Positions 4,393-46,350 of a stretch of 64,000 nt of DNA are shown here, piece by piece. Location: the NCBI RefSeq assembly GCF_009467795.1, contig NZ_WIAX01000008.1, positions 62,001 to 126,000 on the forward strand, in the 5' to 3' direction. How positions within the stretch are numbered: position 1 is the stretch's first letter; each line of letters opens with the position of its first letter. The stretch is from Nesterenkonia halophila. GTDB lineage: Bacteria; Actinomycetota; Actinomycetes; Actinomycetales; Micrococcaceae. The notes below the pieces were generated by a model. The model was not told the origin of the DNA and made no database searches. It was given only the letters and a program-made list of their open reading frames with translations. The position numbers were made by a program, and so were the translations under genes.

Positions 4393-5334
4393 GTGACGAC
4401 CGCATTCGACCCGGACGGTCCGTCGCTGGTGCTCGAGGGCGAGAACCTCGAGCATCTGCGCGGGCTGCCGGACGGCGGCTTCGCCATGATCTATCTGGAT
4501 CCGCCGTTCAACACCGGTCGGGCCCGGACCAGCGTCCGCACCAGCACCACCCGGCACGCCGAGGGCGCCCATGTCGGCTTCGGCGGTCGGCGCTATGAGA
4601 CGGTGCGTCGGCTGCTGGCCGCCTACGACGACTCCTTCACCGACTACTGGGAGTTCCTCGAGCCGCGGCTGCTGGAGGCCTGGCGGCTGCTCGACCGGAC
4701 CGGCACGCTGTATCTGCACCTGGACTACCGCGAGGTGCACTACGCGAAGGTGATGCTCGATGTCGTCTTCGGCCGCGAGTGCTTCCTCAACGAGATCGTC
4801 TGGGCCTACGACTACGGCGGCCGGACGAAGAAGCGCTGGCCGACGAAGCACGACACCATCCTGGTCTATGTGAAGGACCCGCAGGGCTATCACTTCGACG
4901 CCGAGGCGGTGGACCGCGAGCCGTACATGGCGCCCGGGCTGGTCACCCCGGAGAAGGCCGCCCGCGGCAAGCTGCCCACCGACGTCTGGTGGCACACCAT
5001 CGTCTCTCCGACGGGCCGCGAGAAGACCGGCTATCCGACGCAGAAGCCCACCGGTCTGCTGCGCCGGATGGTCACCGCCTCCTCCCGGCCCGGCGACTGG
5101 GTGCTGGACTTCTTCGCCGGTTCCGGCACGCTGGGCGCAGTCGCCGCGGAGACCGGACGGCGCTTCGTCTGCATCGACTCCTCGCCGCACGCCGTCGAGG
5201 TGATGGGCCGCCGGCTGGGCGCCCACGCCGAGGTGCGTCCGGGCGCGCCGGAGCAGGGCCCCGGCGCAGGGGCGGACGGGCCTGCGGGCACACCGCCCGG
5301 ACCGCCCACCGAGGGACAGGAGGCGCTGTCGTGA
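4393..5334 (+). CDS. Solitary site-specific DNA methyltransferase (beta-class N4/N6 type)
   Basis: A 313-residue SAM-dependent DNA aminomethyltransferase. The catalytic motif IV DPPFN is at residues 36-40 and the SAM-binding motif I, DFFAGSGTLG, follows at about 239-248; this IV-before-I order marks the beta class (CcrM/HinfI-like N6-adenine or N4-cytosine). YPTQKPTGLLRR (motif X region) is also present. The GTG at 4393 has GAGG at 4378-4381. No restriction enzyme gene is adjacent, so this is an orphan methyltransferase. Its stop overlaps the GTG of the ABC ATPase (GTGA), so it is coupled to the transporter genes, an odd pairing. The recognition sequence cannot be predicted. The acidic/Pro-rich last 40 residues are probably disordered. 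Confidence 0.9.
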   Translation: MTTAFDPDGPSLVLEGENLEHLRGLPDGGFAMIYLDPPFNTGRARTSVRTSTTRHAEGAHVGFGGRRYETVRRLLAAYDDSFTDYWEFLEPRLLEAWRLLDRTGTLYLHLDYREVHYAKVMLDVVFGRECFLNEIVWAYDYGGRTKKRWPTKHDTILVYVKDPQGYHFDAEAVDREPYMAPGLVTPEKAARGKLPTDVWWHTIVSPTGREKTGYPTQKPTGLLRRMVTASSRPGDWVLDFFAGSGTLGAVAAETGRRFVCIDSSPHAVEVMGRRLGAHAEVRPGAPEQGPGAGADGPAGTPPGPPTEGQEALS

Positions 5335-6179
5335 TCGAGTTCCGTCAGGTGTCGAAGACCTACTCCGACGGCACCGCCGCCGTGGAGGACTTCAGCCTCA
5401 CCGTTTCCTCGCACACCACGACCGTGCTGCTGGGCTCCTCGGGCTGCGGCAAGACCACGCTGCTGCGGATGGTCAATCGCATGGTCGAGCCCACGGCCGG
5501 CTCGGTGCGCATCGATGACGTCGACGTCGCCACGGTGCGGCCGGTGGCGCTGCGGCGCAGCATCGGTTACGTCATGCAGAACTCCGGGCTGATGCCGCAT
5601 CGTCGCGTGGTCGAGGACATCGCCACGGTGCCTCGGCTGAACGGCGCCCCTCGGGCCGAGGCCCGCCGGCGCGCGATGGAGCTGATGGAGGTCGTCGGCC
5701 TCGATCCGCAGCTCGCCCGGCGCCATCCCGGCCAGCTCTCCGGCGGCCAGCAGCAGCGCGTGGGCGTCGCCCGCGCGCTGGCCGACGACCCGAACATCCT
5801 GCTGATGGACGAGCCCTTCGGCGCCGTCGACCCGCTGGTGCGGCTGGAGCTGCAGCGGGAGCTGCGCCGACTGCAGGACGACCTGCGCAAGACGATCGTC
5901 TTCGTCACCCACGACATCGACGAGGCGCTGGCCCTCGGCGACCAGATCGTGGTCCTCCGGCCCGGCGGCCGCACCGCCCAGACGGGCACGCCGCGCGAGC
6001 TCGTCGAGGCGCCCGCCGACGACTTCGTCTCCCGCTTCCTGGGGCTCGACGCGGGGCGGCGGAAGCTGCGGGCCGCGCCGCGCCCCGGCGGCGGACAGGT
6101 GGTCACCGACGACGCCGGTCGGCCGCTGGGCGTGCTCGACGACGCCGACGGCGGACCCTCCGCCGGCGCCGGGGAATGA
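5331..6179 (+). CDS. Osmoprotectant (glycine betaine/choline-type) ABC transporter, ATP-binding subunit
   Basis: A 282-residue ATPase of the quaternary amine uptake (OpuCA/ProV-like) group. Walker A GSSGCGKTT near residues 35-43, Q-loop YVMQNSGLMPH, signature LSGGQQQRVGVARAL, Walker B ILLMDEPFGAVD and the H-loop VTHDIDEA are all intact. VMQNSGLMPH and FGAVDP are typical of the QAT group. There is no clear C-terminal pair of CBS domains; the tail after about 240 is short. The GTG at 5331 overlaps the methyltransferase stop and has AGGAGG upstream. The stop overlaps the first permease ATG. It energises import through the two permeases that follow. Confidence 0.93.
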   Translation: MIEFRQVSKTYSDGTAAVEDFSLTVSSHTTTVLLGSSGCGKTTLLRMVNRMVEPTAGSVRIDDVDVATVRPVALRRSIGYVMQNSGLMPHRRVVEDIATVPRLNGAPRAEARRRAMELMEVVGLDPQLARRHPGQLSGGQQQRVGVARALADDPNILLMDEPFGAVDPLVRLELQRELRRLQDDLRKTIVFVTHDIDEALALGDQIVVLRPGGRTAQTGTPRELVEAPADDFVSRFLGLDAGRRKLRAAPRPGGGQVVTDDAGRPLGVLDDADGGPSAGAGE

Positions 6180-6874
6180 CCGCCGTGCAGTGGATCCTGG
6201 AGAACCTCCCGCAGATCCTGGAGCTGACCGTCGACCACCTGCTGCTCACCGTCCCGGCGGTGCTCGCGGCCTTCCTGCTCGCGCTGCCGCTGGGCCGGCT
6301 CGCCGTGCGGCTGCCGCGGCTGCGCGAGCCGCTGGTCGGCGGCATCGGGCTGCTCTATGCGATCCCCTCGCTGCCGCTGTTCATCGTGCTCCCGCTGATC
6401 CTGGGCACCAGCATCCGGGAGCCGCTGAACGCCGTGGCGGCGCTGACGCTGTTCGGTCTGGCACTGATGGTGCGGTCGGCCGCCGACGCCTTCGGCTCGG
6501 TGGAGGAGGACGTGCGGCTGGCCGCCGTCGCCGTCGGGCACTCCGCCGCCGGCCGCTTCCTGACCGTCGAGCTGCCGCTGGCCGGTCCGGCGCTGCTGGC
6601 GGGGCTGCGGGTGGTCTCGGTCTCGACGATCAGCCTGGTCAGCGTCTCGGCGGTGCTGGGCATCACCAGTCTCGGCTCGCTGTTCACCGACGGCTTCGAA
6701 CGGGGCATCGTCGCCTCGATCGTCGCCGGCATCGTGATGACCGCCGTGCTGGCGCTGGTGCTGGATCTGCTGCTGGTCGCCCTCGGCCGGGTGCTGATGC
6801 CCTGGCGGCGGCCGGCGCCGCGCCGTGCCGGCTCCCGAGAGCCGGCGCAGGTCGGGGAGCGGGGTGCAGCATGA
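6176..6874 (+). CDS. Osmoprotectant ABC transporter permease 1
   Basis: A 232-residue membrane protein with about five to six hydrophobic helices and a BPD_transp_1 pattern. The EAA-like loop reads VRLAAVAVGHSAAGRFLTVELPLAGPALLAGLRV around residues 115-148. It matches OpuCB/YehW-type permeases of quaternary amine importers. ATGA overlaps join it to the ATPase before it and the second permease after it, so all are made together. An Arg/Pro-rich tail of about 25 residues follows the last helix. Substrate is inferred from the system, not visible in this subunit. Confidence 0.9.
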   Translation: MTAVQWILENLPQILELTVDHLLLTVPAVLAAFLLALPLGRLAVRLPRLREPLVGGIGLLYAIPSLPLFIVLPLILGTSIREPLNAVAALTLFGLALMVRSAADAFGSVEEDVRLAAVAVGHSAAGRFLTVELPLAGPALLAGLRVVSVSTISLVSVSAVLGITSLGSLFTDGFERGIVASIVAGIVMTAVLALVLDLLLVALGRVLMPWRRPAPRRAGSREPAQVGERGAA

Positions 6875-43866: not shown

Positions 43867-44856
43867 ATGAGCGACTCTGCCGTGCCCGCGGACTCCTGGA
43901 TGCGCCGCCGCCAGGTGCCGCTGTACGTCGCCGCGCTGGTGGTCGGCGCCGTCGTCGGGCTGGCCGTGCCGTCGCTGGCCGTCGTCGCCGAGGTGCTCGT
44001 CCACCCGGTGCTGGGGGTGCTGCTCTACGCGACCTTCCTGGAGGTCCCGGCGGCCGCCGTCGGGCGTGCCGTGCGCGACCGACGCTTCCTCGCCGCGGCG
44101 CTGGGCGTCAATCTGCTGCTCGTCCCGCCGGTGGTGTGGCTGCTCTCCCGGCCCGTCGCCGACGATCCGGCGGTGCTGCTCGGCGTGCTCTTCGTGCTGC
44201 TGACCCCGTGCGTGGACTACGTCGTGGTCTTCGCCGGGTTGGCCGGGGGCGCGCAGGAGCGGCTGCTGGCGATCACGCCGCTGCTGATGATCGGGCAGAT
44301 GGCGCTGCTGCCGCCGGCGCTGTGGCTGCTCGCCGGGCCGCAGGCGCTGGCCACGTTGTCTCCGGAGCCCTTCCTCGCCGCCTTCGTGCTGCTGATCGTG
44401 CTGCCGCTGGCGGCGGCCTGGATCACCCAGGCCGCCGCGCGGCGCACGCGGCCGGCGGCGGCGCTGGAGCAGGCCGGATCCGGGGCGATGGTGCCGCTGA
44501 TGATGCTCACCCTGGCGACGGTCGTGGTCTCGCAGATCGCCGCCGTCGCCGATCAGCTCGCCGCCCTGCTGCAGGTGATCCCGCTCTATGTGCTCTTCGC
44601 AGCGATCATGGTCGTCCTCGGCCTGGCCGTCGGGCGGCTGGCCGGCATGGACGTCGCCGGCCGGCGGGCGGTGATCTTCTCCGGGGCGACGCGCAACTCG
44701 CTGGTCGTGCTGCCGCTGGTGCTCGCGCTGCCGGACCGGTTCGCGCTCGCCGCACTGGTGGTGGTGACCCAGACCCTGGTCGAGCTGGTGCTCCTGGTGC
44801 TCATGGTCCGGGCGGTGCCGCGGCTGGTGCCGCAGCGCCTCAGGGGCAGGGGATGA
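43867..44856 (+). CDS. ACR3/BASS-superfamily transporter (arsenic resistance or bile acid:Na+ symporter type)
   Basis: A 329-residue protein with about ten membrane helices. VLFVLLTPCVDYVVVFAGLAGG near residues 108-129 matches the conserved TPC.D segment of ACR3 arsenite exporters, and SGATRNSLVVLPLVLALP near 275-292 matches the later ACR3 signature. ACR3 uses the conserved Cys in TPC for arsenite, present here. However, no arsR, arsC or arsT gene is adjacent and the protein is shorter than many ACR3s, so another anion or organic substrate is possible. The ATG at 43867 has GGAAG upstream. The 3' end overlaps a small gene on the other strand by 17 bases. Confidence 0.8.
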   Translation: MSDSAVPADSWMRRRQVPLYVAALVVGAVVGLAVPSLAVVAEVLVHPVLGVLLYATFLEVPAAAVGRAVRDRRFLAAALGVNLLLVPPVVWLLSRPVADDPAVLLGVLFVLLTPCVDYVVVFAGLAGGAQERLLAITPLLMIGQMALLPPALWLLAGPQALATLSPEPFLAAFVLLIVLPLAAAWITQAAARRTRPAAALEQAGSGAMVPLMMLTLATVVVSQIAAVADQLAALLQVIPLYVLFAAIMVVLGLAVGRLAGMDVAGRRAVIFSGATRNSLVVLPLVLALPDRFALAALVVVTQTLVELVLLVLMVRAVPRLVPQRLRGRG

Positions 44857-44929
44857 CCCAGCAGTAGAACGGGTCGCCGGCGGCGGTCACAGTGGACAGC
44901 AGGGTGGCCACAGATGTCAGGAGGTTCAT
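44840..44929 (-). CDS. 29-residue cysteine-containing small peptide
   Basis: A tiny reading frame with an excellent ribosome-binding site (GGAGAGG, 7 bases before the ATG at 44929). The peptide starts MNLLTSVATLLSTVTAAG, an amphipathic hydrophobic helix, and ends DPFYCWVIPCP with two cysteines four residues apart. Codon third positions fit real coding. It overlaps the end of the transporter gene in antisense and is divergent from an orphan sensor kinase 240 bases away. Two 10-base direct repeats lie in its upstream region. It could be a signalling or membrane-active peptide, or a small membrane-anchored regulator. No family recognised. Confidence 0.55.
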   Translation of the reverse strand: MNLLTSVATLLSTVTAAGDPFYCWVIPCP

Positions 44930-44971
44930 CGGACCTCTCCTCTCTGGGGATGCGAGTGCGATGGCGAGACG

Positions 44972-44994
44972 GTCAGTCTCCGGTGTCAGTCTCC
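44972..44994. repeat. Direct repeat GTCAGTCTCC in the peptide/kinase intergenic region
   Basis: Two exact 10-base copies (44972-44981 and 44985-44994) with 3 bases between lie upstream of the small peptide gene. A 13-base period could be the binding site of a response regulator. The rest of the 44930-45105 gap shows no gene I can support. Confidence 0.5.
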
Positions 44995-45105
44995 TGCAGG
45001 ACGGTGACGGGGACCAGACCTGTCGGCTCCCGTCGGGTGACCGGCAGGTGACGATCCGGCGGCCCGACGGCGGCGATCGATGCCGGTGTCGTCGCCGACG
45101 GTGCG

Positions 45106-45111
45106 TAGGAT
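45106..45111 (+). promoter_or_regulatory. -10 box for the leader ORF and sensor kinase
   Basis: TAGGAT ends 7 bases before the GTG at 45119, the exact spacing of other leaderless starts in this window. Confidence 0.5.
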
Positions 45112-45118
45112 GCCTGCT

Positions 45119-45169
45119 GTGATCCCGGAGACGACCGCCGCGCCGGAGAAGCCGAGGAAGGGCCGCTGA
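45119..45169 (+). CDS. Putative 16-residue leaderless leader peptide of the sensor kinase
   Basis: GTG at 45119 opens a frame reading (M)IPETTAAPEKPRKGR and stopping at 45167-45169 in a TGATG overlap with the kinase ATG. The position relative to TAGGAT implies ribosomes load on it as a leaderless message and may reinitiate on the kinase. An ATG at 45110 in the same frame would lie inside the -10 box. It may be a coupling device with no function as a peptide. Confidence 0.35.
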   Translation: MIPETTAAPEKPRKGR

Positions 45170-46350
45170 TGGACCCTGTGCTGCCCCGCATCGGCCGCTC
45201 GCTGCGCCGCCATCTCAGCGCGCCGCCGCTGAGCTGGCGCACCCGACTGATCATCTGGGGATTCCTGGTCGCGTATCTCGCGCTCGAGCTCGCCTCGGCG
45301 CTGGGCATGTTCGGCGAGAACACCGCCGGCGTCGGCCGGGACGGCTTCGCCGAGGTCGCCGTGGTCGGGCTGCTGATCGTGCTGGCCTCGCTCTCCGCGC
45401 CGGCCGGGACGCTGCTGATGTTCGTCTTCGCCTTCGGCACGGTGACCGACTGGTACCCGATGAACTTTGCGATGGGCTTCGTGTTCATCGCGGCCTGCCT
45501 GACGCGCACCGCGACCTGGGGCTTCACCTGCTTCAGCGCCGTCCTCTATCTGGGCTGGGCGACGACGGTGCTGCTGACCGGCCATCCCGTCGCCGTCGCG
45601 CTGGTCTCCTTCTTCCTGGTGCTGCTCGGCACCACCATCGGCTGGTACTTCCGCGCCCACGACGCCCGGGTGCGGCGGATCGTGCAGGACCTGGACCGCC
45701 AGGCCGAGATCCGTGAGGAGGCCGTCGCCGCCGAGCGCCGGCGGATCGCCTCGGAGATGCACGACGTCGTCGCCCACGGGATGACGGTGGTGGCCATGCA
45801 GTGCTCGGTGCTGGAGACGCTCGACGAGCCCGAGGCCCGCCGCTCGGTGCAGCGCACCATCCGGGAGGCGGCCGGCCAGTCGCTGGTGGATCTGCGGCGG
45901 CTGCTGGTCGCGCTGCACGGCAGCCAGCGGTCCGACGGCGAGGACGCGCCCGACGGCGGCGAGGGCCTGGACGCGCTGCGGCGCTTCGGCGAGCGGCTCG
46001 AGGAGGGCGGCTACACCGTGCGGCTGCGCCTCGAGGCGCCCGAGGACCTGCAGCGCTCGCTGGAGCTGACCGTGCTGCGGGTGGTCCAGGAGTCGGTGAC
46101 CAACATCCTCAAGCACGGCCCGGGCGAGGGCGAGGTGTCCCTGGAGGTCGTCGCCGAGGTCGGGCAGGTGCGCGTCGAGATCTCCAGCCCGATCCCGGAG
46201 CAGCAGGCGGAGCGCAACACCGCCGGCGCCGGGATGGGGCTGGCCGGCATGGAGGAGCGTCTGCGGGTCTTCGAGGGCACGCTGGGCTGGGGCCCGGCCG
46301 ACGGACGCTGGCTGGTCTCGGCGACGCTGCCGCTGCGCGGACAGGGCTGA
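45169..46350 (+). CDS. Sensor histidine kinase, NarL/LiaS-type (HisKA_3), no adjacent regulator
   Basis: A 393-residue membrane kinase. Residues 20-165 hold about five hydrophobic segments and no large extracellular domain, as in kinases that sense membrane signals. The phosphorylated His198 is in RRRIASEMHDVVAHGM (HisKA_3), followed by a HATPase with QESVTNILKHG near 310 and GAGMGLAGMEERL near 350. It should phosphorylate a NarL-type response regulator, yet none is on either side: upstream is the small peptide gene, downstream nudC. GAAGGG lies before the ATG. The missing partner may be elsewhere in the genome. Confidence 0.88.
   Translation: MDPVLPRIGRSLRRHLSAPPLSWRTRLIIWGFLVAYLALELASALGMFGENTAGVGRDGFAEVAVVGLLIVLASLSAPAGTLLMFVFAFGTVTDWYPMNFAMGFVFIAACLTRTATWGFTCFSAVLYLGWATTVLLTGHPVAVALVSFFLVLLGTTIGWYFRAHDARVRRIVQDLDRQAEIREEAVAAERRRIASEMHDVVAHGMTVVAMQCSVLETLDEPEARRSVQRTIREAAGQSLVDLRRLLVALHGSQRSDGEDAPDGGEGLDALRRFGERLEEGGYTVRLRLEAPEDLQRSLELTVLRVVQESVTNILKHGPGEGEVSLEVVAEVGQVRVEISSPIPEQQAERNTAGAGMGLAGMEERLRVFEGTLGWGPADGRWLVSATLPLRGQG

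Follow-up and report, generated by a model that had tools for sequence, protein, structure and literature searches.

A two-cysteine peptide gene divergent from a DesK/NarX-type sensor kinase in Nesterenkonia: a candidate peptide-sensing two-component unit

The 64-kb stretch of Nesterenkonia halophila DNA analysed here (the window) carries a gene for a 29-residue peptide with two cysteines near its C-terminus and, divergently beside it, the gene of a membrane-bound HisKA_3 sensor kinase. It is rather likely that the two belong to a peptide-sensing two-component unit consisting of the 29-aa precursor, the adjacent kinase, and a NarL-type regulator. As such, the unit would belong to a known kind, the peptide-sensing two-component systems, with a signal peptide family that is probably new. 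No description of such a system was found in the open-licence literature; subscription papers were outside this scope, and the word "undescribed" is provisional.

The peptide gene and its signals

The peptide gene (44840-44929, minus strand), as read from the sequence and the list of open reading frames, starts with ATG and comprises 29 codons, encoding MNLLTSVATLLSTVTAAGDPFYCWVIPCP. A leader of approximately residues 1-18 precedes a conserved end, approximately residues 19-29, in which C23 and C28 are separated by four residues and followed by Pro and the stop codon. A ribosome-binding site, GAGAGGAGAGG, is present at 44930-44944 on the same strand, with GAGAGGAGAGGTCCG directly preceding the start of the ORF. 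Thus, the gene described in the initial annotation, one of 29 residues with a ribosome-binding site, a hydrophobic leader, and a two-Cys end with Pro, is indeed there. A strict signature that demands a start codon, an RBS-like motif, a hydrophobic leader, and a Cys-x(3-11)-Cys end matches just once in the entire 64-kb window, at this ORF. By eye, basic residues are absent from the leader, which sets it apart from a usual signal peptide.

Two 10-bp direct repeats, also pointed out previously, were found between the peptide and kinase genes at 44972-44981 and 44985-44994 (plus strand GTCAGTCTCC). The minus strand reads GGAGACTGAC-ACC-GGAGACTGAC and then GTCTC, and the stretch 44972-44994 is a putative binding site for a regulator at the peptide promoter. 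In both the window and Nesterenkonia sp. F, the elements GAGAC/GAGAC/GTCTC are positioned at -64, -51, and -41 of the peptide gene. The pair GAGACT-N6-8-GAGACT occurs once in the window's genome and twice in sp. F, with one copy per genome at the peptide locus; consequently, a large regulon with such spacing is not evident.

The peptide gene and a convergent SBF-type transporter gene share 17 nt at their 3' ends (44840-44856), and the arrangement is the same in sp. F. The neighbours of the locus are this transporter, the kinase, and a Nudix enzyme; as had been stated, neither an exporter nor a protease is among them.

The sensor kinase

The kinase (45169-46350, plus strand, 393 aa) was assigned using Pfam, hydropathy, AlphaFold, and profile and fold searches against the PDB. 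HisKA_3 and HATPase_c both exceed the Pfam cut-off, the H-box is intact, and a multi-helix membrane domain (approximately residues 23-160) lies in front. Hydropathy gives five hydrophobic peaks, and the AlphaFold model has about six helices before the core, with a good core and a weak sensor domain (pTM 0.42). The core is DesK-like, DesK being the best match both by profile (3.2e-35) and by fold. The divergent multi-helix kinase of the initial annotation therefore belongs to the DesK/NarX type of HisKA_3 kinases and has about six membrane helices.

At high identity, the kinase is present in two genomes, that of the window and that of sp. F (94%), the only other genome found. The next-best matches reach approximately 32% among 58 relatives and 35% among the 80 species-collection loci kept. 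A plasmid origin was rejected because plasmids yielded nothing closely matching the kinase DNA. Directly before the kinase gene is another 29-codon ORF (45080-45169, plus strand), whose TGA overlaps the kinase ATG and which, by eye, keeps 21 of 29 residues in sp. F. This ORF could couple translation.

Conservation of the peptide in Nesterenkonia sp. F

The peptide of sp. F, MNLLTSLATLITSMNAAGDPFYCWVIPCP (contig NZ_AFRW01000103.1), is 79% identical to that of the window. Its C-terminal GDPFYCWVIPCP is unchanged, and all six residue changes, which lie in the leader, are conservative. At the nucleotide level, 11 of 90 positions differ; 10 of them fall within the leader, and the remaining one is a silent change in the final Pro codon. 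Identity is complete across the start and RBS stretch (29/29, 44915-44943) and nearly so in the C-terminal stretch (41/42), with 23/33 in the leader, 30/33 in the repeats (44966-44998), and 83/104 in plain intergenic DNA. Furthermore, the annotated frame suffers the mildest changes of the six (BLOSUM loss -20 versus -42 to -61). When the same number of leader changes was placed at random, all were conservative in 1.8% of trials, or in 9.8% when the observed positions were kept, so the test of conservative change, taken alone, is moderate. From these comparisons, the peptide gene is judged to be conserved as a protein and kept with the kinase. Loss of the frame where the kinase is kept, which had been raised as a point against the gene, was not seen: both high-identity kinase holders, the window's genome and sp. 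F, retain it.

Direct searches for the peptide, whose counts include the window's own genome wherever it was searched, returned few genomes. The exact peptide is present in 2 of 58 relatives and in 2 of 30 genus genomes, and a two-row profile run on 395 family genomes gave the same two genomes as the only strong matches; the next-best match (E 0.003) was judged to be chance because matches at that level are sited in long open frames. A DNA pattern for DPFYCW was found in one of 394 class genomes, the window's own, and none was confirmed in viral contigs for the exact peptide. Opposite the transporter 3' end in seven other loci, no comparable ORF was seen, and the transporter neighbourhood is uninformative. 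The peptide family came to light only via the kinase.

Recurrence of the design in related kinases

A quickly built tree of 103 kinases groups the first 16 known peptide-linked kinases within a single 37-row clade (SH-aLRT 98), and four found later also lie inside it. In all, 20 of the 37 clade kinases have beside them a small ORF that encodes a hydrophobic leader followed by a Cys-x(4-9)-Cys pair at the C-terminus; these kinases come from Nesterenkonia and from three further genera of the same family. In 18 of these 20 units, the peptide is encoded on the kinase strand, immediately upstream; the divergent order is found in the window and sp. F alone. A mixture-model tree of a 57-row selection (24 from the 37 of the clade and 33 from the 66 others) again unites the clade with the window (support 97). 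The window branch is long, and the position of the window pair within the clade is unsettled in this tree (support 75); a 109-row tree gives support of 85 to the window together with groups A and B.

Group A (L272-L280, nine species) has a conserved ORF of 50-51 aa directly upstream of the kinase, encoding a hydrophobic helix and then Cys-x8-Cys as the very end. Approximately 40-100 nt before the peptide start, all nine loci carry a strongly conserved element, AAATTAG..TACTT.AGTC.ACTAT, which lies between the kinase operon and the divergent regulator and is likely an operator. A small-ORF scan of 304 sequences (1.77 Mb) gave L288, L289, L291, and L031, the last from another genus; four distinct matches with GTG/TTG starts look like chance. 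Forty further kinase loci yielded one more, L332, from a third genus, and a relaxed scan beside the remaining clade members yielded L285, L286, L287, and L022, the last from a fourth genus. The L285 kinase falls in two frames, and its start is consequently unsure. Examples of the ends of these analogues are VCRLLRSC, FCRVTRTC, FCYVFDRFFRNC, LCKLFRSC, VCQLLRPIYRGC, CQYVDPFYCD, and LCKVFGIFCG. By eye, the leaders of L291, L332, L022, and L031 resemble cleavable Sec signal peptides. Six analogous peptides compared with Pfam and NCBIfam gave no match over the cut-off and weak matches for two.

No peptide was found beside the other 17 clade kinases, namely the 15 of group B, L281 (on a contig of 4,409 bases), and L292, and relaxed rules with no RBS demand turned up nothing consistent there. 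In group B (L258-L271 and L282), the kinase is divergent beside a regulator, with gaps of 54 nt (L258) and 43 nt (L259), and these regulators are the ones most similar to that of sp. F; the signal of this group may be unlinked or different.

As a control, a strict rule (ATG and an RBS-like motif) was matched at 17 of the 37 clade loci (251,517 nt), the nine group-A cases being close relatives, versus none of 129 other HisKA_3 loci (938,190 nt), some of whose kinases are absent from the trees. Five shuffles of the clade loci gave one match. The rule was drawn up once the first examples were known; L031, L332, and L285 were found after it. Without the RBS demand, the clade loci give 26 matches, some of them evidently due to chance, and one lies outside. 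Together, the 20 peptide-linked clade kinases and the empty result of the strict rule at the 129 other loci support the earlier suggestion that the architecture is like that of peptide-sensing units.

Within group A, divergence is greater in the sensor domain than in the catalytic domain: sensor and catalytic identities are 68.0% and 95.9% for L278-L274, 61.5% and 91.8% for L278-L276, 67.5% and 81.0% for L278-L272, 59.5% and 82.4% for L278-L280, 93.5% and 99.5% for L278-L279, and 93.0% and 98.6% for L275-L277. The two values differ only slightly between the window and sp. F (92.8% and 94.4%), a pair without faster sensor divergence, and for L288-L289 (78.8% and 83.1%).

The candidate regulator

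In the window, a small ORF with a Cys-x(4-9)-Cys end lies beside a clade kinase, and no NarL-type regulator is adjacent. The kinase had been described as lacking any response regulator, and this holds for its contig (C19), which has no GerE match; however, a probable regulator lies at a separate locus in sp. F. GerE proteins number 8 in the window's genome, none of them on the window contig, and 12 in sp. F. Three of the 12 sp. F loci have no HisKA_3 kinase nearby: one adjoins a PspC-type sensor, one encodes a protein without a receiver domain, and the third, C114, is alone in sp. F in encoding a GerE protein that has a receiver domain but no sensor detected next to it. With regulators in 14 other Nesterenkonia, or 15 if a partial match in G016 is counted, the C114 protein shares 65-73% identity; with those in ten further Nesterenkonia, it shares 50-52%. 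In these 25 genomes, the NarL-type regulator is divergent beside a kinase matching that of the window; this kinase is the genome's best match to the window kinase in 20 cases and a lower match in five. Neither a related kinase nor the regulator was found in G006, G013, and G028 among the 30 genus genomes, and no C114-type regulator was found in the window's genome (2.19 Mb, 65.5% complete).

The genes flanking the C114 regulator match those at L258 and L259, with the intervening kinase missing, and no remnant of an A- or B-type kinase was detected there. Since the C114 regulator has no adjacent kinase in sp. F and is kinase-paired in relatives, its displaced partner is likely to be the window kinase. 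The simplest reading of these gene orders is that the kinase and peptide left the side of the regulator in the lineage of the window and sp. F, and the window kinase probably partners a C114-type NarL regulator. Alternatively, the kinase at C114 may have been lost and replaced by an unrelated arrival, the window kinase.

Several other genes were noted at these loci. A large gene at L283 (10661-13063, minus strand), by eye a siderophore-type enzyme fusion, adjoins the sp. F regulator and matches neighbours of L258 and L259. L260 has a second regulator (5160-6215, minus strand), 53% like that of sp. F, with a small ORF ending CDSRCCLLF upstream. A GerE protein without a receiver, 91% identical between two genomes and with an ATPase-like part by eye, is encoded at L241 (3992-4825, minus strand) and L252 (3125-4168, plus strand).

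Models for the function of the peptide

In the peptide-sensing model, the 29-aa precursor would enter or cross the membrane by means of its hydrophobic leader. A cut near the junction of AAG and DPFYC, placed by eye, would free about 11 residues, probably DPFYCWVIPCP, and C23 and C28 would close the released end. The membrane domain of the kinase would bind and perceive this peptide, and the kinase would then phosphorylate a NarL-type regulator, presumably the one at the separate locus C114 in sp. F. The regulator, in turn, would probably bind the GGAGACTGAC repeats before the peptide gene, creating a feedback loop.

A broader proposal, on which we are evenly divided, is that the peptides form a new Micrococcaceae pheromone class whose Cys-x(4-9)-Cys end would be disulphide-closed without a dedicated enzyme and read by a fast-diversifying DesK-type clade; the window pair would have moved away from its regulator and have a new signal of about 11 residues. 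If true, a Micrococcaceae peptide-kinase-regulator family with lineage-specific ends, and with no processing gene seen beside that of the window, would represent a testable signalling language between cells, and its short ligands would be easy to make synthetically. It would also suggest a partner both for the orphan kinase and for the regulator standing alone.

A different model, which we regard as unlikely, is that the peptide is a small membrane protein that remains in the membrane of its own cell and acts on the kinase directly, in the way that MgrB modulates PhoQ. MgrB is reported to be a bitopic protein of the inner membrane, 47 aa long, which suppresses PhoQ and in which two outer cysteines are essential (PMC10576120, PMC8404706), and this precedent of a small two-Cys protein with a kinase is matched by the group-A peptides, which resemble one membrane helix and then a two-Cys tail. 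However, the window helix is short for a membrane span, the kinase class and phylum differ from those of MgrB-PhoQ, and the Sec-like leaders of several analogues, as judged by eye, fit release.

It is quite improbable that the peptide is instead an output controlled by the kinase, such as a small bacteriocin or another membrane-active peptide, and not what is sensed. The peptide is short, hydrophobic, and Cys-containing, with a putative operator in front, all of which would suit such a role, but no immunity or export gene is adjacent. In addition, peptide and sensor domain co-occur across the clade, the peptide gene directly adjoining that of the kinase, and the strict rule found nothing at the 129 other kinase loci.

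Finally, very little credence can be given to a locus that is not a protein gene at all but a chance ORF, an RNA element, a terminator, or an attenuator leader. In favour of this reading, the C-terminal codons hardly differ in DNA sequence between the window and sp. F, GACCC/GGGTC pairing is possible by eye just after the transporter stop, and Trp, Cys, and the final Pro would suit a stalling leader. Against it, the substitutions fit the annotated frame only, analogues exist in relatives, folding is no better than that of shuffles on either strand (z 0.69, 0.40), there is no Rfam match or terminator-like site, and an attenuator leader is ruled out because nothing lies downstream on the minus strand for it to control except antisense to the transporter.

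Comparison with known systems

The peptide-sensing unit proposed here resembles several known systems in part. Agr precursors, like the window peptide, combine a hydrophobic leader with an end that contains Cys and could be cyclised, and AgrC is a kinase of a type other than HisKA_3, to which the window kinase belongs. An agr system was ruled out: AgrB (PF04647) did not exceed the cut-off in any of the 30 genus genomes, the window's incomplete genome among them, with three weak matches below it. DesK, LiaS, and VraS share the catalytic core of the window kinase; they sense the state of the membrane or envelope and are not known to have such an adjacent peptide. In the SHP/Rgg systems of streptococci, a short hydrophobic peptide gene is likewise divergent from the gene of its receptor, but that receptor is a cytoplasmic regulator, whereas the receptor candidate in the window is a kinase.

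The proposed unit would work in the manner of ComX and ComP. In the ComQXPA system of Bacillus subtilis and other bacteria, according to a 2014 census, a small variable precursor is encoded beside a multi-helix HisKA_3 kinase and a NarL-type regulator, the ComP sensor is more variable than the core, and some loci have a hypothetical comX on the opposite strand; the census found the system in Firmicutes only (PMC4008528). The window likewise has a kinase with PF07730 and PF02518 beside a small precursor, and the sensor variability of group A resembles that of ComP. However, no ComQ-like gene is adjacent to the window peptide, and the signature of that peptide is two Cys, versus the isoprenyl-modified C-terminal Trp of ComX. 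The nine group-A peptides have no Trp; in the window peptide, W24 lies near the C-terminus.
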